A stretch of DNA of 54,382 bases from Candidatus Omnitrophota bacterium (GTDB lineage: Bacteria; Omnitrophota; Gorgyraeia; B26-G9). A program made the position numbers and the translations under genes. The stretch spans positions 1-54,382 of the forward strand of contig JAHJAO010000107.1 of assembly GCA_018813905.1 (NCBI GenBank), read 5' to 3'. Positions 11,001 to 21,420 of this stretch are shown piece by piece. The first letter of the stretch is position 1. Every line of letters starts with the position of its first letter. The notes under the pieces were generated by a model, which was not told the DNA's origin, did not search any database, and saw only the letters and a program-made list of their open reading frames with translations.

Positions 11001-12203
11001 ATGGCGAAAAGTATAGCTGAAATAAATGAAAAAATTAAAAAAGGGCAAGTGGTTGTTGTCACCAAAGAAGAGGTTTTAGATATAGTTAAGGATAAAGGGC
11101 TAAAGAAAACTTCGGAATATGTGGATGTGGTAACAACCGGCACTTTCGGCCCGATGTGTTCTTCTACGGCTATTTTTAATATCGGGCACGCCAAGCCAAA
11201 GATAAAAATACAAAAAGCTTGGGTGAACGACGTACCTTGTTATTGCGGGTTAGCGGCCGTAGATCTAATTATTGGCGCGACCGAACTAAGAGAGAACGAT
11301 CCGGTCAACCTTTATTATCCGGGAGAGTTCAAATACGGCGGGGCCCATGTAATCGAGGAAATGGTACGGGGAAATGATTTAAAACTAAGAGCGGTTGCCT
11401 ATGGAACCGATTGCTACCCGCGCAAAGAACTTAACACTTTAATAAATTTAAAAGACTTGAATGACGCTTGGCTTCTAAACCCCCGAAACGCGTACCAGAA
11501 TTATAATGTGGCGGTCAATATTTCCCAAAAAACCATTTATACCTACATGGGAATGTTGCGGGAAAATTTAGGCAACGCCAATTATTGCAGCGCCGGACAA
11601 TTATCGCCTTTATTGAACGATCCATATTTTAAGACCATTGGTATCGGTACGCGGATTTTTCTCGGCGGCGGCATAGGCTACATATTCGGGCATGGCACTC
11701 AGCATGCCACCAAAGTAAAGAGGACAAAAGAAGGTGTTCCGATAACCCCTGCCGGGACATTGGCGGTTCAGGGGGATTTAAAAAAAATGAATGGCGAATG
11801 GCTACGTGCCGCTTCTATCCAGGGTTATGGCGTGAGTTTAGCGGTAGGGATTGGAGTTCCGATCCCGATCGTTGATGAAAAAATCATGAAAGATGTTTGC
11901 GTGCGGGATGAAGATTTGCTGGCCCAGGTTATCGATTATAGCGGGGCGTATCCGCAGGGTAAAAGCGATTGCCTGGGGTACGTAACTTATAAGGATTTAA
12001 GATCGGGTTCGATAGTTGTGAATGACCGGAAAATCCCTGCGACCGGGATGTCCAGTTATTTTAAAGCGAGAGAAATATGTGAAATCTTGAAGGCGTGGAT
12101 TAAAAAGGGCGATTTCTTACTTTCCGAGCCGGTAGCCTCTATGCCGGGTGAAAATTCCGAGATGATTTTTAAACCGTTAAATTACAGGGAAAGCAGGTCG
12201 TAA
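11001..12203 (+). CDS. DUF39-family homocysteine biosynthesis protein
   Basis: 'DVVTTGTFGPMCSSTAIFNIGHAKPKIKIQKAWVNDVPCYCGLAAVDLIIGATE' and 'GTRIFLGGGIGYIFGHGTQH' are DUF39-like. Confidence 0.8.
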   Translation: MAKSIAEINEKIKKGQVVVVTKEEVLDIVKDKGLKKTSEYVDVVTTGTFGPMCSSTAIFNIGHAKPKIKIQKAWVNDVPCYCGLAAVDLIIGATELRENDPVNLYYPGEFKYGGAHVIEEMVRGNDLKLRAVAYGTDCYPRKELNTLINLKDLNDAWLLNPRNAYQNYNVAVNISQKTIYTYMGMLRENLGNANYCSAGQLSPLLNDPYFKTIGIGTRIFLGGGIGYIFGHGTQHATKVKRTKEGVPITPAGTLAVQGDLKKMNGEWLRAASIQGYGVSLAVGIGVPIPIVDEKIMKDVCVRDEDLLAQVIDYSGAYPQGKSDCLGYVTYKDLRSGSIVVNDRKIPATGMSSYFKAREICEILKAWIKKGDFLLSEPVASMPGENSEMIFKPLNYRESRS

Positions 12204-12418: not shown

Positions 12419-13054
12419 TTATTGGTTCTGGTCTTTACCGCTGGCTTTGGATTCGTCGATTAGTCTTTTTACCGCGTGCGGCTCAAAAATCAAGAAGAAA
12501 CTGCCATGGATATCTTTTTCGTTTATATCAAAAAATGTCTCGATTAAAATAATCTGGGTTTTTTCCCTGACGATTTTATTGAAGGCAACATTGAAAATCG
12601 TATCCAGGGTGCCGCAGATAAGATTAGGCGTAGAATGCAGGATTACGCTTTTAGTGAATGTTGAAAGCGTTGCTAAATATGCGGAAATGACGATATTACC
12701 GATTTCTTTTAGCGTGGATACCCCGTATTCGGTAGCGCTGCCGATTTCGCCGCCGCGCATTTGAGAGATAGAGTCTATTAATGTATAAGCGCTTTTTTCC
12801 GGGAACATCAAAACGACATTTCCCGAAAGCTTGCCCAACAGTTGGATGCTTACTCCCACCAGGACCTCTTGCGTGCCTTGTAATTGGTCAATTACTTTTT
12901 CCGAGTCCATGAGCTGTAAATCCGGGATGTTCAATTCAATCCTTTGGTTGACTACCTGTCCCAGGGCAATGGTGGCATTGCCCGTGCAGATATGCCCCAC
13001 TTCTTTTAGCATATCAATACATGCATTGTCTAAGGTTGTTTCGTTATTGGCCAT
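12419..13054 (-). CDS. CheC-like phosphatase-family protein
   Basis: 'DMLKEVGHICTGNATIALGQVVNQ', second motif 'TLKEIGNIVISAYLATLS'. Confidence 0.75.
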   Translation of the reverse strand: MANNETTLDNACIDMLKEVGHICTGNATIALGQVVNQRIELNIPDLQLMDSEKVIDQLQGTQEVLVGVSIQLLGKLSGNVVLMFPEKSAYTLIDSISQMRGGEIGSATEYGVSTLKEIGNIVISAYLATLSTFTKSVILHSTPNLICGTLDTIFNVAFNKIVREKTQIILIETFFDINEKDIHGSFFLIFEPHAVKRLIDESKASGKDQNQ

Positions 13055-13099
13055 TTGTTTTTAAAACCCCCCTTTTTAAGTTTGTAAATGTTATATATA

Positions 13100-14863
13100 C
13101 TATTTTACTACAATCCATTTCCTTTTTACAAGATTTATAAATAAATTAACAATTACCGGATCGAGCTGAGCCGGTGCGCAGTCTTTAAGCAGTTTGAGCG
13201 CAACTTTTACGCGGAAGGCCTTGCGGTACGGCCGGTCGGCAGTCATCGCTTCAAATGTGTCGGCAACGGCCAGGATGCGTGAACCGACGGGGATATCGTT
13301 TTTTTTTATCCCGTCGGGGTATCCGCCGCCGCCGTAGCGCTCGTGATGGTGATAAATAGTTGTTTTTATCTCATCGGATAAATCTGTGCTTTCTAAAATA
13401 TTTAAAGTCATCGACAAGGGAGATTCAATTTTTTTCACCAAATTTTTATTCAGGTGTTTGGATAATATCTTGTTCTGAGAACGCCGCTTCAGGAGCCATC
13501 CCGCGGTTTCGCCCCAGAAGAAGTTTACCGGGTCTAAGATGCGTTTGCCGATCAAGGGGTGGTTTTTTATAATTTTATATTCCGCGGTTGTCAATTGGCT
13601 GGGTTTTGAAAGGATTTTTTCCGGAATCCCGATTTTTCCGATATCGTGTAAAATGCCCGCGATCTGGATTCCCTCGACCATCTTCGCCGGGAGTTTCAAG
13701 GCCTGGGCCATTGCTACCGCATAATAAGATACAAGTTCAGAATGCCCTCTTGTATAAATGTCCTTTTCTTCGATAGCTTGCGCTAGCGCCTTTATCGTGC
13801 TGATATAGGTTTTGCGCAGATTTTTGTAGAGATTTGCGTTTTCCAGCGCCACCGATGCCTGATTGGCCAGAGTACTCAATGCCTGCTGGTCTTTTTCATT
13901 GAAGTGGTCCGGTTTTGTCGAGTAGAGGCTTAGCATCCCGAACATATTCCCTTTAGAAACCAGCGGAGCGTTTTTATTTGATTTTAAGTCGGCAGGACGG
14001 ATGGGTTTTTTGCTTCTTTTTATGCCTTTAATCTTTTTGGAAATTATGAAAATTTTATTTAATTGAATAACTTCTCTTTTTGCGCTGCCGGCAACGAGCA
14101 ATAAATTTTTTTTCAAAGCGTGTTTTGTCTTATCTAAAATGGGAGAGGATGAACCGATGAATAAAAAATAGTTTTCATCTTCGAAAAGCATCAGGGTAAA
14201 AATATCAAAACTAAATAAATCGCGGATGCAATCACCTAAAACATTTATGATCGCGTCCTGGTCCAGGACGGAATTTAAGGCGCAGCTGATAACATTGAAA
14301 CGGAATAATTGCTGGATTTTCTCTTCCGCCGCAACGTAAAGTTTGGCGTTGTGGATGGCGATGGAGCTTTCCCTCGCGAATTTTGAAATGATATTTAAAT
14401 CATTTTTTGTGAATTCTACCGAACCCGGAATACGGTTTAAATTCACGACGCCGATGAGTTTATTGGCAAAACTTAGGGGAATAGACAGGGATGATTTAAC
14501 GTTACGCCGCCGAGCGGCGCTCTTTTTAATCAAGGGGATTGTGGCGTCATTAAGCAATAAAGGCTGGTTTTGCTGGGCGACCAGTCCCGCAATTCCTTCG
14601 CCTAATTTTATGCGGGCGTGTTGGGCGATTTGCGCCTTTATGCCTTGAGAGGCCTTAATATGCAATTCAGTATTTGCTTCGTCATAAATCATCAAGGAGC
14701 CAGAGTCGGCGCGGGTCTGCCTTAGCATCGTATCGAGGATGACGTTATACAATTTGTTTAAATCTAGTGACGAGCCCAGGACTTTGCTGATTTCTTCGAG
14801 ACTCGCTAAATTCAAGGTTTTCTCGGATTGAGCTTTAATCGGAGAGTTAGATTCTGGCACCAT
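13100..14863 (-). CDS. GAF-domain HD-GYP phosphohydrolase (putative c-di-GMP phosphodiesterase)
   Basis: GAF-like regions; 'HSELVSYYAVAMA...HDIGKIGIPEKIL...HHHERYGGGGYPDGI...ADTFEAMTADRPYR'. Confidence 0.85.
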   Translation of the reverse strand: MVPESNSPIKAQSEKTLNLASLEEISKVLGSSLDLNKLYNVILDTMLRQTRADSGSLMIYDEANTELHIKASQGIKAQIAQHARIKLGEGIAGLVAQQNQPLLLNDATIPLIKKSAARRRNVKSSLSIPLSFANKLIGVVNLNRIPGSVEFTKNDLNIISKFARESSIAIHNAKLYVAAEEKIQQLFRFNVISCALNSVLDQDAIINVLGDCIRDLFSFDIFTLMLFEDENYFLFIGSSSPILDKTKHALKKNLLLVAGSAKREVIQLNKIFIISKKIKGIKRSKKPIRPADLKSNKNAPLVSKGNMFGMLSLYSTKPDHFNEKDQQALSTLANQASVALENANLYKNLRKTYISTIKALAQAIEEKDIYTRGHSELVSYYAVAMAQALKLPAKMVEGIQIAGILHDIGKIGIPEKILSKPSQLTTAEYKIIKNHPLIGKRILDPVNFFWGETAGWLLKRRSQNKILSKHLNKNLVKKIESPLSMTLNILESTDLSDEIKTTIYHHHERYGGGGYPDGIKKNDIPVGSRILAVADTFEAMTADRPYRKAFRVKVALKLLKDCAPAQLDPVIVNLFINLVKRKWIVVK

Positions 14864-14874
14864 ATTAAAACCAA

Positions 14875-15498
14875 TTACTTTTTAAGCTGTTTTTCACAGG
14901 CTTTTAAAATATTTTTCATGGATTCAGAGTCAAAAGCGATGAAAAATTTACCCGTAACTGATGTTATGCGTTCTGTGAATATCGTTTCGATCAGAATTAG
15001 ACTCGCGTCTTTATGCTGCTGGAATGCGCCGAAGATGCTTTTAAAAACAGAGCTGGGTAATCCTTCCATAAACTGAGGGCAGGAGGGGAAAACCGCTAAA
15101 CGGGATACGGAGCTTAAAGTTGATAAATATGAAGAAATAACGATGTTGCCGATTTCTTTTAAAGAGGAAATACCGATTTGAGTAATAAATCTGGTTTTTT
15201 GAAACGTTTTTCCTACCAAGATTTGCATTAAGTTATAGGCGCTTTTTTCCGAAAATAAAAGAAGCACATGGCCGCTGACCGCGCCTAAGGTTTCCATGTG
15301 GATAGCGACAATGGTATGCTCATCGTTATTGACCACTTTGGCGAGCTCGTGGATGTTTAGTATCTGGACAACCGGTGTTTCTAAGTCTATTTTTTTGAAT
15401 AAGATCTGACCGAGGGCGATACTTGCGTTGCCGGCACAGATATTGCCGACTTCCTTTAAGATATCCAGTTCTTTTTTGGAATAATTTTTACTGGCCAT
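14875..15498 (-). CDS. CheC-like phosphatase-family protein
   Basis: 'DILKEVGNICAGNASIALGQILFKKI', 'SLKEIGNIVISSYLSTLS'; start MASKNYSKKE with upstream AGGAGG. Confidence 0.8.
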   Translation of the reverse strand: MASKNYSKKELDILKEVGNICAGNASIALGQILFKKIDLETPVVQILNIHELAKVVNNDEHTIVAIHMETLGAVSGHVLLLFSEKSAYNLMQILVGKTFQKTRFITQIGISSLKEIGNIVISSYLSTLSSVSRLAVFPSCPQFMEGLPSSVFKSIFGAFQQHKDASLILIETIFTERITSVTGKFFIAFDSESMKNILKACEKQLKK

Positions 15499-15522
15499 TT
15501 GGTGCAACCTCCTGTTTATAGG

Positions 15523-15551
15523 AATATAACATAATAAGAAAATAGTGTCAA
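15523..15551 (-). promoter_or_regulatory. sigma70-like promoter TTGACA-17nt-TATATT upstream of the CheC/HD-GYP block
   Basis: Minus-strand TTGACA (15546-15551), 17-nt spacer, TATATT (15523-15528). Confidence 0.7.
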
Positions 15552-15632
15552 TAAAATTTGTTTTCAAAAGCATCGATGTATGCTATTATATGAAAGCATT
15601 TTTTTGTGTGAGACAACTTTAACAAGATAACT

Positions 15633-16952
15633 TTGGTGAAAAAGCTTATGGGCGAGACTTTTGCCGGTGGTAATCATATAACCGGTTATAAAGAATTAAG
15701 TAAAGACAAGCAGATTATCGAGATGCCGATACCCTCTCGGGTGGCTATACCGCTTAGCCAGCATACCGGAATTATCTGTGAGCCTATGGTTAAAGAATCC
15801 CAGCTGGTTAGGGTGGGGACCAAGATCGGCCAGGGGCAGGGGCTGATTTCAAGTTCTGTCCACGCAAGCATTTCCGGCAAAGTTACTAAAATCACGGATT
15901 ATAATCATCCGGTACTCGGAGTTTGTAAGGCTGTAATTATCGATTCTGACGGCCAGGACGAATTAGAGCCTGGAGTGGGTGTGGCTCTTGCGCGGAACAT
16001 AAAATTGTTTTCCAAAGAGCAGCTTTTGGAAATTATTAAAAACGCAGGTATCGTGGGTTTGGGCGGCGCAGCCTTTCCCACCCAGGTAAAATTAAACCCG
16101 CCCAAGCCGGTCGAGTTTCTGATTATTAATGGCGCGGAATGCGAACCCTACCTTAGTTGTGATTTTAGAATTATGTTAGAGAGGTCGCAGGATATCTTAA
16201 AGGGGGTGTCTGTTGTCCAGCAGATATTGAATGTGCGGAAAGTTCTTATCGGCGTGGAAGATGATAAACAGGAAGCGATTAAGGCGTTACGGAACAAGAT
16301 TGCCGAGTTGAAGCTGGATTTCGCGGTGGTGGGGCTTAAAACCAAATATCCGCAAGGCGCGGAAAAACAGTTGATAAAGGCGCTTCTGGACAGGGAAGTG
16401 CCGCCGGGCAAGCTTCCTTTTGATGTCGGTGTCGTGGTTTTAAATGTCGGTACGGTCTTGGCGGTGGGGGAGGCGGTTTTTTTGAACAAACCGTTGTACG
16501 AACGCGTAGTTACGGTTACCGGCAAAATTCTGAAAAATCCGGCTAATCTTAAAGTAAGATTAGGCACCAGATTTTCGGAACTGATAAATTTTTGCGGCGG
16601 GATCAAAGGGCAATGCGAGAAAATTATTATGGGCGGCCCGATGATGGGCATAGCGCAGTGCACGGATGATGTTCCGGTAATTAAAGGCACCTCCGGAATT
16701 CTGTTATTGTCAAAATCCCAAACAGCAGGGTTTGCCGAGCAGCCCTGTATCCGCTGCGGACGGTGCGTGGATATATGCCCGATGCGCATGCTGCCTTACC
16801 TGTTAAGCCAATATGGACAAACCGGCCATTATCAAAAAGCGGACGGATTAAACGTGAAAGATTGTATGGAGTGCGGAGCTTGCGTTTATATTTGCCCGGC
16901 TAAAAGACGTATTTTAGAGCATATCCGGTTGTTAAAAACGGTGTTGAAATGA
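15633..16952 (+). CDS. rnfC: RnfC-like electron transport complex subunit
   Basis: 'GIVGLGGAAFPTQVKLNPP', 'INGAECEPYLSCD', two 4Fe-4S motifs CIRCGRCVDICP and CMECGACVYICP. Confidence 0.92.
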   Translation: MVKKLMGETFAGGNHITGYKELSKDKQIIEMPIPSRVAIPLSQHTGIICEPMVKESQLVRVGTKIGQGQGLISSSVHASISGKVTKITDYNHPVLGVCKAVIIDSDGQDELEPGVGVALARNIKLFSKEQLLEIIKNAGIVGLGGAAFPTQVKLNPPKPVEFLIINGAECEPYLSCDFRIMLERSQDILKGVSVVQQILNVRKVLIGVEDDKQEAIKALRNKIAELKLDFAVVGLKTKYPQGAEKQLIKALLDREVPPGKLPFDVGVVVLNVGTVLAVGEAVFLNKPLYERVVTVTGKILKNPANLKVRLGTRFSELINFCGGIKGQCEKIIMGGPMMGIAQCTDDVPVIKGTSGILLLSKSQTAGFAEQPCIRCGRCVDICPMRMLPYLLSQYGQTGHYQKADGLNVKDCMECGACVYICPAKRRILEHIRLLKTVLK

Positions 16953-17929
16953 CACAGGAAGATACAAAAATTATAGTAGAAAGTTCACCGCATTTGCGTT
17001 CTGAAGAGTCCATACCCCGGATCATGTGGACCGTAGCGTTATGCCTTATCCCGTCCGGGGTGATGAGCATGCTGGTTTTCGGTCCGGCTACGGTTTGGAT
17101 AATAATCAGCGCGGTTTTAGGCGCCGTAATTACGGAATTGATTAGTTGCCGTTTAAGAAAGAAACCTCTAACCTTAATGGACGGCAGCGCTGTTCTTACC
17201 GGAATTCTGCTGGCGTATAATCTGCCGCCGCAATCACCGCTGTGGATGGCGTTTTTAGGGGGCAGTGTTGCTATCTTTCTGGGCAAAGTTTTGTTCGGCG
17301 GCTTGGGGTTTAATATTTTCAACCCCGCTTTAATCGGCCGGGTTTTTCTCATGGCCAGCTTTCCGCAACTGATGACCCGTTGGCCGGCTCCGTTCGGCAT
17401 TGATGCCGCTACCGCACCGACGCCGCTCGCGGTTTTTAAAGACGGGTTCGCCAATACGAATATCTTAACCCAAACGGAGATAATTAATTATTCTTATTCT
17501 GACCTGTTTTTGGGGTTGCGGGGAGGGTGTATCGGAGAAGCGTGTATCCTGGCCCTGCTCTTAGGGGCGGCTTATTTAGTTTACAAACAGTATATTACGC
17601 TGGAAGTTCCTCTCTCTTTTATCGGTACAGTCGGTATTTTTAGCTGGATATTTTCCGGTAGTGGATTTTTCAAAGGGGATTTTTTAATACATGTTTTATC
17701 CGGCGGTCTCATTTTAGGCGCGTTTTATATGGCTACGGATTATGTGACCGGCCCGATTACCAAAAAGGGTAAGCTTGTTTTTGGTGTTGGCTGTGGTTTG
17801 ATAACCTGTTTAATTCGTTTATGGGGCGGGTATCCGGAGGGCGTATCCTACGCGATTCTTTTGATGAACGTGGTTACGCCTTTAATTGATAGATTTACCG
17901 TTCCCAAAAGGTTTGGCGAGGTGAGATAA
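16949..17929 (+). CDS. rnfD: RnfD-like membrane subunit
   Basis: 'SSPHLRSEESIPRIMWTVALCLIPS', 'MDGSAVLTGILLAYNLPP', 'ATAPTPLA' near the flavinylation site, 'ATDYVTGPITKKGKLVFGVG'. Confidence 0.92.
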   Translation: MTQEDTKIIVESSPHLRSEESIPRIMWTVALCLIPSGVMSMLVFGPATVWIIISAVLGAVITELISCRLRKKPLTLMDGSAVLTGILLAYNLPPQSPLWMAFLGGSVAIFLGKVLFGGLGFNIFNPALIGRVFLMASFPQLMTRWPAPFGIDAATAPTPLAVFKDGFANTNILTQTEIINYSYSDLFLGLRGGCIGEACILALLLGAAYLVYKQYITLEVPLSFIGTVGIFSWIFSGSGFFKGDFLIHVLSGGLILGAFYMATDYVTGPITKKGKLVFGVGCGLITCLIRLWGGYPEGVSYAILLMNVVTPLIDRFTVPKRFGEVR

Positions 17930-17933
17930 GGAA

Positions 17934-18731
17934 GTGAACAGAATTATTTTAGGGATTTTAACGCTTTCAGGACTCGGCTTCGGCTTTGGTTTGCTACTTG
18001 CCTGGATGTCCAAAAAGTTTCATGTTGAAGTTGACCGCCGCATCATGAAGATTAGCGAAATACTGCCGGGCGTCAACTGCGGAGCTTGCGGCTTGGCCGG
18101 ATGCTCCGGCTTTGCCGAGGCTTTGGTAAATAACGCGGTCAATATTAATGCCTGTGTGGCCTGCTCCGGAGAAAATAAAAAAGCTATTCTTGAAATATTA
18201 GGCGTACAAGCGGACGAAACAAGTACTGATGCCGGGCAAATAGCGGTGATGCACTGCGGCGGCGGAATGAAATGCAAAGACAGATTTTTATACCGCGGAC
18301 TTAAAGATTGCCTTATTGCCGCGCAGACAATCGGCGGCCATAAAGCTTGTAAATACGGGTGTCTTGGCCAGGGTAATTGTGTTGCGGTTTGCCCGTTTGG
18401 CGCGATTGTGATTTTGGAAAATAAAACGCCTCAAGTATCTACCCAGTTATGCCGGGGCTGCAAAAAATGCGTTGCCGCCTGCCCGCGAAAAATCATCAGC
18501 ATGATGTACGTGAAGAAGAAAGTTTATATAAAATGCGTATCGCGCGAGAAAGCCGCGGATAAAGCCAGGAAATGCAAGGCAAGCTGTATTGCGTGCGGTA
18601 AATGCGTTAAGGAATGCTCGCAAGGCGCGATCGCCATAAATGATAATCTGGCCCAAATCAATTATGAAACATGTGTTGGCTGTCAGAAATGCGTTGCGGT
18701 CTGCCCAACCAAAGTTATTGCCGTGATATGA
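17934..18731 (+). CDS. rnfB: RnfB-like ferredoxin subunit
   Basis: N-terminal TM helix, 'LPGVNCGACGLAGCSGFAEALV', multiple 4Fe-4S motifs. Confidence 0.92.
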   Translation: MNRIILGILTLSGLGFGFGLLLAWMSKKFHVEVDRRIMKISEILPGVNCGACGLAGCSGFAEALVNNAVNINACVACSGENKKAILEILGVQADETSTDAGQIAVMHCGGGMKCKDRFLYRGLKDCLIAAQTIGGHKACKYGCLGQGNCVAVCPFGAIVILENKTPQVSTQLCRGCKKCVAACPRKIISMMYVKKKVYIKCVSREKAADKARKCKASCIACGKCVKECSQGAIAINDNLAQINYETCVGCQKCVAVCPTKVIAVI

Positions 18732-20326
18732 AAAAAGTTGATGTTACTGTCCTACCGATTTTAAAAAAAATCAAAGCCGTAAAAGGAACTAGATTGCTGG
18801 ACGCGCTGAAAACCGCGGGCATTGAAAGCGATTCTGCCTGCGGTGGCCGGGGAGTTTGCGGTAAGTGCGAAGTATTGCTTGTAAATAAGCAAAAAGGCGC
18901 AAGAAAAGTAACCCGGAAGGTGCTTGCCTGTCAATTTAAAGTTGAATCGCCTTGTGTTGTCCAGCTTAGATATTCTCCGGGAAGAGAAGTTAAAGTGTTG
19001 AAAGAGCATAAGACAAGTTCTAAATTCAAAGCGGACGCTTTGGTTAAAAGAAAACATTTCACAAGCGGAGTTTCCCTGGTTTTGGATGATGGCGAGCTGC
19101 TAGGGTTTGAAAAGCATAAGCGAAAACATATTTTTGGCCTGGCCATTGATGTGGGTACAACTACTGTTTGTGTGAGTTTATGTAATCTCGAGCGTCAGGA
19201 AGAGGTGGCGCAAGAGGCGGTATTGAACGCTCAGACGCGATACGGCGCGGACATAATCACCCGGCTCGACTTTGCTCTAAAGTCGAGAAAGAACCAGCTT
19301 TTGTTGCATAGAGAAGTGGTGGCTTCTATTAACCGCGCCATCGGCGAATGCGTCCAGAAATCGGGTGTGCATAGAGATCAGATTTATACCGCGGTGGTCG
19401 TGGGCAATTCCGTCATGCATCATTTACTGCTGAAGTTATCTTTGCATACTTTCGTAACTCCTCCTTATCAAATCCGGCATAAAGGCGCGCTCGCCGTAAA
19501 GGCTAAAACTCTTGATTTAGACATTAATCCTAACGCCAACGTTCGGTTTTTGCCTTTGATCGAAGGTTTTGTCGGCTCAGATGTGTTGGCTACGATTATA
19601 AGTTTGCGTTTATTTAAAAATAAACATTTTAATCTATGTGTGGATTTAGGGACCAACGGAGAGATTATTATCGGGTCCAAGCAGGGGATAGAAGTAGCTT
19701 CCTGCGCTGCCGGCCCGGCCTTTGAGGGGTATAATGTGAGCTGCGGCATGATTGCCAAAGCCGGGGCGATTGAATGGGTAAGTATGGAAAACGGACGCTT
19801 GCGGTTGTTAACTATCGGCCATATTCAGCCTCAAGGAATCTGCGGTAGCGGAATTATCGATATTTTAAGCGAATTGCTTAAAGCGGGGATAGTGGACTCA
19901 TCGGGGCAAATGAAGGGGAAGGAATTTACTGTTTACAAAGACAAACGGGTTAAAATTGATTTCACAGCGCGTGATGTGCGTTCCGTGCAGTTAGCCAAAG
20001 CCGCGGTTTGCGCGGGGGCGCAGATTTTAATGAAAAAAGTAAAGGCAAACGCCGGTAAAATCAAAAACGTGTTTTTAGCCGGCGCCTTGGGCAATTATTT
20101 GAACGCGGAAAACGCGCTTAGAATTGGGCTTCTCCCGAAGGAACTGAAAGGCAAAATAAAGTTTGTGGGCAATACGGCTTTTTTAGGCGCGAAACAGGTT
20201 TTGTTTTCGGCAAATGATTTCCGGCAGGCTGTAAAAATTTCCAAAAAAATAAAACATGTGGCCTTAGCGAAAGAAAAAGGTTTTTCCGAAATGTTCGCCC
20301 AGGCTCTGAGTTTTCCTAAAAAATAA
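18728..20326 (+). CDS. ASKHA-type ATPase with N-terminal 2Fe-2S domain (RACo-like reductive activator of corrinoid proteins)
   Basis: 2Fe-2S 'CGGRGVCGKCEV...LACQ', 'FGLAIDVGTTTVCVSL', 'NAQTRYGADIITRL', 'GICGSGIIDILSELLKAGIVD'; ATGA overlap with rnfB stop. Confidence 0.85.
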   Translation: MKKVDVTVLPILKKIKAVKGTRLLDALKTAGIESDSACGGRGVCGKCEVLLVNKQKGARKVTRKVLACQFKVESPCVVQLRYSPGREVKVLKEHKTSSKFKADALVKRKHFTSGVSLVLDDGELLGFEKHKRKHIFGLAIDVGTTTVCVSLCNLERQEEVAQEAVLNAQTRYGADIITRLDFALKSRKNQLLLHREVVASINRAIGECVQKSGVHRDQIYTAVVVGNSVMHHLLLKLSLHTFVTPPYQIRHKGALAVKAKTLDLDINPNANVRFLPLIEGFVGSDVLATIISLRLFKNKHFNLCVDLGTNGEIIIGSKQGIEVASCAAGPAFEGYNVSCGMIAKAGAIEWVSMENGRLRLLTIGHIQPQGICGSGIIDILSELLKAGIVDSSGQMKGKEFTVYKDKRVKIDFTARDVRSVQLAKAAVCAGAQILMKKVKANAGKIKNVFLAGALGNYLNAENALRIGLLPKELKGKIKFVGNTAFLGAKQVLFSANDFRQAVKISKKIKHVALAKEKGFSEMFAQALSFPKK

Positions 20327-20343: not shown

Positions 20344-21420
20344 ATGGCAACTCTTAAGACGAAAATAAAAAAACCGGCGGTTCTAACCGCAATGAGCGGA
20401 GGTACGGACTCGTCCTTTGCGGCTTATTTGCTCAAAAAACGAGGTTATGCGGTAACCGGAATTACGATGCGCGTGGATGAGGATACCAGCCAGATTGCGA
20501 AAGCGAAGCGGGTCGCGGAGGGAATCGGCATTCCGCACCTGGTCCGGGACGTGCGGCGTGAGTTTAACTTGCGGGTTATCGATTATTTCTGCCGGCAATA
20601 TATTAAAGGGTATACGCCTAATCCGTGCCTTGCCTGTAACCGTTTTATAAAATTCGGGTTGCTGTTTAATACCGCTACCGAGCAATATGATTATTTTGCC
20701 ACCGGCCATTACGCCCGCGTTGTTTACGAAACAAGGAGAAAAATTTACTGTTTAGTAAAAGGAAAGGATAAGAAAAAAGACCAATCGTACGTTTTGTATA
20801 TGCTCACCCAAAAACAGCTTAGCCGGCTGCTTTTGCCGCTTGGTAATTACACAAAACAAACCGTCCGGCAAAGGGTAAAACAATTGCGGCTGCCTGTGGA
20901 TACAGAAAGCGAAAGCCAGGATATCTGTTTTGTCCGCGATGAGGATTATACGAGTTTTATCCGGAAATTCAGGCCGGATTTTAAAATAGCTTGCGGTAAT
21001 ATAAAGAATATTCGCGGAGAAATTTTAGGAGAGCATAAAGGATACCTGAATTATACTATCGGCCAAAGAAAGGGGCTGGGCATAGCTTATAAGACGCCGC
21101 TGTATGTGGCCGGCATAGATGCTAAAAAGAACGAGGTTGTTGTGGGTGAGGAGAAAGATTTATTTAAACGCGTATTTACGGTCACGGATATTTCTTTTAC
21201 TGCCCCGCGCGATATCAAGCAAAAATTTTGCGCGCAGGTTAAAATACGTTACCATCACCAGCCGGCAAAAGCGCAGATACGCAAAGTGGACAAAAACAGT
21301 TGGCAGGTAGAATTTTTTAAACCGCAGAAAGCAATTACTCCCGGGCAAGCCGCGGTATTTTACAAAAATGAACGGGTGTTTGGCGGGGGCATTATCAACA
21401 GAGTGGAAAGCCGCTTTTAA
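20344..21420 (+). CDS. mnmA: tRNA 2-thiouridylase MnmA-like
   Basis: 'AMSGGTDSSFAAYLL', 'NPCLACNRFIKFG', 'ATGHYARV', 'SESQDICFV', 'YTIGQRKGLGI'. Confidence 0.9.
   Translation: MATLKTKIKKPAVLTAMSGGTDSSFAAYLLKKRGYAVTGITMRVDEDTSQIAKAKRVAEGIGIPHLVRDVRREFNLRVIDYFCRQYIKGYTPNPCLACNRFIKFGLLFNTATEQYDYFATGHYARVVYETRRKIYCLVKGKDKKKDQSYVLYMLTQKQLSRLLLPLGNYTKQTVRQRVKQLRLPVDTESESQDICFVRDEDYTSFIRKFRPDFKIACGNIKNIRGEILGEHKGYLNYTIGQRKGLGIAYKTPLYVAGIDAKKNEVVVGEEKDLFKRVFTVTDISFTAPRDIKQKFCAQVKIRYHHQPAKAQIRKVDKNSWQVEFFKPQKAITPGQAAVFYKNERVFGGGIINRVESRF

Follow-up and report, generated by a model that had tools for sequence, protein, structure and literature searches.

A RACo-like gene overlapping rnfB in Candidatus Omnitrophota: a candidate for the reductive activation of stand-alone corrinoid proteins

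Why should the gene of a putative corrinoid activator overlap that of RnfB, the electron-input subunit of the Rnf complex? The question is raised by an operon of rnfC, rnfD and rnfB followed by a RACo-like (PF14574/DUF4445) gene, found in contig JAHJAO010000107.1 of assembly GCA_018813905.1, a Candidatus Omnitrophota genome (here G000) whose assembly is 92% complete; the window is the whole stretch analysed, 54,382 nt of this contig. RACo-type proteins couple ATP to the reduction of Co(II) corrinoid (PMC6739815, in part), and electrons from ferredoxin enter RnfB (PMC12174285). From sequence comparison we infer, with moderate confidence, the activity, client, donor and direction of electron flow of this system: the RACo-like protein would reductively activate a stand-alone methyl-corrinoid protein, using electrons that likely come from RnfB.

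All four genes lie on the plus strand, and their products exceeded the Pfam gathering or the TIGRFAM and NCBIfam curated cut-offs on which the domain calls were based. RnfC (15633..16952, 439 aa) has the barrel-sandwich, flavin mononucleotide (FMN)/NADH (51K) and SLBB domains and two 4Fe-4S sites (PF13375, PF01512; TIGR01945, 521 bits, cut-off 246). The membrane subunit RnfD (16949..17929, 326 aa) matches TIGR01946 (335 bits, cut-off 207) and PF03116 (382 bits). RnfB (17934..18731, 265 aa) begins with a hydrophobic helix, which is followed by the PF04060 4Fe-4S domain and several Fer4 domains (TIGR01944, 110 bits, cut-off 69), and it aligns over its full length with Clostridium tetanomorphum RnfB (7zc6_B, E 3e-55). 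The RACo-like protein (18728..20326, 532 aa) is built of Fer2, PF17651 and PF14574. The rnfC and rnfD genes overlap by 4 bp, the GTG start of rnfB lies 4 bp past the end of rnfD, and the rnfB stop and the RACo-like ATG share one ATGA; this compact arrangement, which leaves no local space for rnfG, rnfE or rnfA, is as the original prediction had read it. The longest mechanical open reading frame of the RACo-like gene starts at 18671, within rnfB. We set the start at 18728 because of the alignment and because the ATGA junction is identical in seven of the seven same-family genomes that retain the gene.

The same prediction had taken the local lack of rnfG, rnfE and rnfA for a partial Rnf-like module, a view that the rest of the genome rules out. 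In profile searches, contig 99 was found to carry rnfE and rnfA, and contig 61 to carry rnfG, so that all six subunit genes (A, B, C, D, E and G) are present over three contigs. The usual rnfCDGEAB order is found in other families of the class, and a CDB / EA / G split, instead of a single operon, is typical of the window's family: in the 11 same-family genomes with rnfD, the window's included, rnfD is never on the rnfE/rnfA contig, and rnfG, where detected, is on a third contig apart from both. The draft assemblies are fragmented; in the neighbourhoods read, both flanks carry other genes (rnfCDB in 10 genomes, rnfEA in 4). Within the family, rnfD of G006 is in two fragments, RnfD was not found in G008 and RnfG was not found in G007. 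The predicted FMN-attachment threonines are retained in RnfD (region DAATAPTPLA, compared over 15 genomes) and in RnfG (...AITGATIS). As a separate observation, in two genomes of the family the gene immediately before rnfE encodes a protein of ~162 aa (L023:8494-8982, on contig 99, and L026:6857-7354); the copy of the window's genome had no Pfam family match.

The RACo-like protein of the window has the elements expected of an activator. It matches PF14574 RACo_C_ter with 239 bits (cut-off 27), PF17651 Raco_middle with 162 (27) and PF00111 Fer2 with 35 (21), and it aligns with RACo (3zyy) at E 1e-73, mainly over residues 131-530. The 2Fe-2S (Fer2) domain (residues 13-72, 18764..18943, plus strand), called from PF00111 and the alignment, retains the cysteines of CGGRGVCGKC, and the ASKHA ATPase part (Raco_middle and RACo_C_ter, residues 136-531, 19133..20320, plus strand), delimited by Pfam, the structure match and the alignment, carries the phosphate-1, phosphate-2 and adenosine motifs (DVGTTT, DLGTNGE, AAGPAFEG, GICGSG and AGALGNYL). 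An alignment of 21 Omnitrophota copies of the non-AcsV (short) type showed that the 2Fe-2S domain is missing in 19, only the window copy and that of G024 having one; the copies of G030, G040 and G127 additionally lack a middle stretch. In the tree, AcsV-type and short proteins branch apart, the window copy groups with six same-family and twelve other copies (support 99/91), and the G024 and G040 copies fall outside this group on long branches. The tree of these sequences implies two or more losses of the 2Fe-2S domain, or a single loss followed by regain in the lineage of the window.

The six same-family copies behind rnfB (G001, G005, G007, G009, G010 and G011; L028-L033) have lost, together with the 2Fe-2S domain, the GTNGE and AAGP loops of the ATP site. 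We compared those of G001, G009 and G011, which belong to one genus, by the ratio of nonsynonymous to synonymous substitution (dN/dS), using our own Nei-Gojobori count. The three pairs gave 0.12, 0.13 and 0.26, against 0.08, 0.12 and 0.24 for RnfB and 0.09, 0.11 and 0.18 for MnmA, the synonymous distance being just above 1 in two of the three pairs and the remaining pair having the highest ratio. The view that these loop-less copies are pseudogenes is not supported for the three genomes, as their ratios are close to those of RnfB and MnmA; in this genus they look maintained by selection and probably have another or a reduced role.

The association with rnfB extends far beyond the window's family. 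In six other families, an rnfCDGEAB-trx-RACo-purN block is present in which RACo has no 2Fe-2S domain (G016 and G075 in f6; G025 in f15; G060, G084 and G104 in f20; G040 in f30; G043 in f33; G127 in f41), some of these contigs beginning within the operon. This strong synteny, which the original prediction had asked to be surveyed, rules out that the RACo-like gene is a local accident. Of the two observations that the original prediction had named as speaking against it, one was thus made, namely rnfG, rnfE and rnfA elsewhere in the genome, and the other, a RACo-like gene not syntenic in relatives, was not. The pairing is also retained where the rest of Rnf was not found: G050 and G057 keep RnfB-Trx-RACo-purN (in G057, on a contig starting inside rnfB) and gave no RnfA/E, RnfD or RnfG match in the genome. 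In G024, rnfB-RACo-purN is on a separate contig from rnfCDGEA. In G136, only RACo fragments remain between Trx and purN of an RnfB-Trx-purN block (L153:1316-1739). No relative was found in viral contigs.

If the protein is an activator, what does it activate? Contig 95 of the window's genome encodes a corrinoid protein of 208 aa that has a cap domain (PF02607), a B12 domain (PF02310) and no PF02965 match. A corrinoid protein (~215 aa) was scored as stand-alone when its cap-domain match fell in an open frame no longer than 261 aa, the adjacent frames being read for part of the matches, and its presence was counted in 292 genomes. It is present in 15 of the 15 genomes with a GTNGE-keeping short RACo and in 25 of the 277 others (Fisher p 8e-15, relatedness not corrected, the 15 genomes representing nine families); in G009, a cap-domain match at the contig start was left out of the count. 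For five of the carriers outside the first set of 58 genomes (G060, G075, G084, G104 and G127), the stand-alone protein was predicted beforehand and found in all five (p 2e-5 for these alone). This co-occurrence lends support to the corrinoid-activator role proposed originally. G136, with its RACo fragments, has no corrinoid cap-domain match, a pattern as expected if the activator decays along with its client. Conversely, MetH proteins with their own in-frame PF02965 activation domain (G017, G027, G029 and G051, with a weaker match in G047) coincide with a short RACo in none of the 58 genomes. The MetH of same-family relatives is 800 aa long and in several of them adjoins a protein of ~210 aa; weak PF02965 matches lie beside MetH in some of them, and one ~210-aa protein had no Pfam match by hmmscan. 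No MetH like this 800-aa protein was found in the window's genome. Separately, we observed that the stand-alone corrinoid gene adjoins an AccD-like gene (L048:4098-5585, with matching loci L049-L057), and that a ~430-aa protein is also encoded beside it in most other families.

On this basis, the RACo-like protein would bind a corrinoid protein inactivated by the slip of its cobalt to Co(II), as activators of the RACo/RamA/DUF4445 type do, and ATP use would let a low-potential electron reduce Co(II) to Co(I). The client would most likely be the stand-alone methyl-corrinoid protein of contig 95, not the corrinoid protein of carbon monoxide dehydrogenase/acetyl-CoA synthase (CODH/ACS). Electrons would most likely pass from reduced ferredoxin through the RnfB iron-sulfur relay to the activator and on to Co(II). 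In the window's genome they would enter by way of the activator's own 2Fe-2S domain, and in relatives without this domain directly. Since 19 of the 21 copies have none, the mechanism predicted originally, in which RnfB passes electrons to the 2Fe-2S domain, cannot hold in general; such copies need an outside relay, for which RnfB is the best placed candidate. When ferredoxin is scarce, the complete Rnf, running in reverse on NADH and the ion motive force, could supply the electrons.

Several observations weigh against this reading. No rnfB stands beside the activator in G030 (Trx-RACo-purN) or G026 (RACo-purN), and purN is equally tightly conserved in the block, so that adjacency alone is no proof of shared function. 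Twenty-five genomes have a stand-alone corrinoid protein and no short RACo, and 19 of them have an AcsV-type RACo, so that AcsV could also serve the stand-alone protein in G000. The homocysteine-methylating domains PF02574 and PF01717 were not found in G000, G024, G025, G026, G030, G043 and G057. Lastly, the six same-family copies without ATP-site loops, of which the three compared look maintained, imply another role at least there.

The explanation that survives best besides the one we favor keeps the activator and its stand-alone client and makes soluble ferredoxin the donor, the rnf linkage being inherited gene order or co-transcription only. That purN and thioredoxin are conserved in the block as well, with no link being obvious, fits this view, and so do the two genomes without adjacent rnfB and the window copy's own 2Fe-2S domain, which could equally accept electrons from soluble ferredoxin. 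So does the wider family: among the best 78 of at least 579 RACo relatives outside the examined genomes, almost all of which come from other phyla (one, L127, is from another Omnitrophota), none adjoins RnfB, and many adjoin corrinoid proteins or methyltransferases. Nevertheless, RnfB stays with Trx-RACo where other Rnf genes were not found (G050 and G057), RnfB-RACo is separate from rnfCDGEA in G024, the ATGA overlap is invariably retained within the family, and most copies need a relay from outside. We therefore consider a soluble donor possible and rather unlikely.

Less probable still is an accessory or regulatory role of the RACo-derived protein as a subunit of Rnf, its ASKHA fold serving assembly, gating or sensing instead of corrinoid activation. 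Such a role would suit the six same-family copies that are without both loops and 2Fe-2S domain, three of which have dN/dS values near those of RnfB and MnmA. It does not suit the loop-keeping copies, which track the stand-alone corrinoid protein without exception and occur in three genomes counted as without Rnf (G026, G050 and G057, the last two keeping rnfB itself), and such a RACo gene is missing from most of the genomes in the first set that have rnf. Reactivation of the CODH/ACS corrinoid iron-sulfur protein, as by canonical RACo/AcsV, can be dismissed as very improbable: the genome does have CODH/ACS, a presence that the original prediction had asked to be checked, and the best NCBIfam model of the window protein is AcsV, but the CODH/ACS cluster (contig 47) contains its own full AcsV, which makes its corrinoid protein an unlikely target, the window protein reaches 325 bits against the cut-off of 800 of the AcsV model NF040756, no AcsV-type match was found in the carriers G016, G024, G030, G040 and G050, and the tree separates the two types.

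To return to RnfB as donor, we put forward more tentatively a split, membrane-tethered activator, in which the ASKHA ATPase would have given up its 2Fe-2S domain and would use the RnfB relay in trans. Corrinoid repair would thereby be wired to Rnf and drivable by reverse electron flow, and one family would later have lost the ATPase loops, keeping the protein for another role beside RnfB.

With RACo/AcsV of Carboxydothermus hydrogenoformans (3zyy, 4c1n), the window protein shares the order Fer2, Raco_middle, RACo_C_ter and the ATP-site motifs. It differs in length (532 aa against ~630), in having no match to the RACo linker domain, in its score far under the AcsV cut-off, in its location in an rnf operon rather than in CODH/ACS, and in its distinct tree branch. 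Also related are the DUF4445 (RamA-like) reactivators of three-part or short MetH in Phaeobacter and Desulfovibrio, which belong to the same Pfam family, have a ferredoxin domain and occur in genomes with a corrinoid protein without PF02965 (PMC5764234). Because fitness data show that DUF4445 proteins of these bacteria share methionine-synthase phenotypes (PMC5764234), the enzyme class is not new. Rnf is not mentioned in the main text of that paper; in contrast to its reactivators, the window gene adjoins rnfB, most of its relatives are without a ferredoxin domain, and a recognisable homocysteine methyltransferase is missing in most carriers, G000 included. The Rnf complex itself, known here from its genes, resembles the ferredoxin:NAD oxidoreductase ion pump in its six subunit genes and the FMN-site threonines of RnfD and RnfG, and departs from it in the split gene order of the window's family and in the RACo-like gene overlapping rnfB. 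In E. coli, the Rnf-type complex Rsx is likewise thought to act on a 2Fe-2S protein, reducing SoxR and not a metabolic ferredoxin (PMC12174285); its client is a transcription factor, and Rsx has no ATPase partner, whereas here the partner would be a corrinoid activator. In the open-licence literature, covered mostly as titles and abstracts, we found no description of the RnfB coupling, the 2Fe-2S loss or the copies without ATP loops.

The operon is flanked by genes that recur in relatives. Upstream lies a gene for an HcyBio homocysteine-biosynthesis protein (11001..12203, plus strand; PF01837, 497 bits), and several genomes of the family likewise have this gene before rnfC. The next gene downstream is mnmA (20344..21420, plus strand; TIGR00420, NF001138), which follows the RACo-like gene in most same-family genomes and is thought to be functionally unrelated to the operon. 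Divergent from the rnf operon, positions 12419-15573 encode two CheC-like proteins and a GAF/HD protein, a set retained in whole or in part in several same-family genomes.

As far as we know, it is unsettled what supplies RACo/RamA-type activators with electrons in the cell, and the conserved overlap of the activator gene with rnfB puts RnfB forward as a concrete candidate. If the proposal is true, Rnf would serve a further output in addition to NAD and ferredoxin, in parallel to Rsx and SoxR. The carriers that have the activator and the corrinoid protein and are without a recognisable methionine synthase point to an undiscovered methyl-transfer enzyme.

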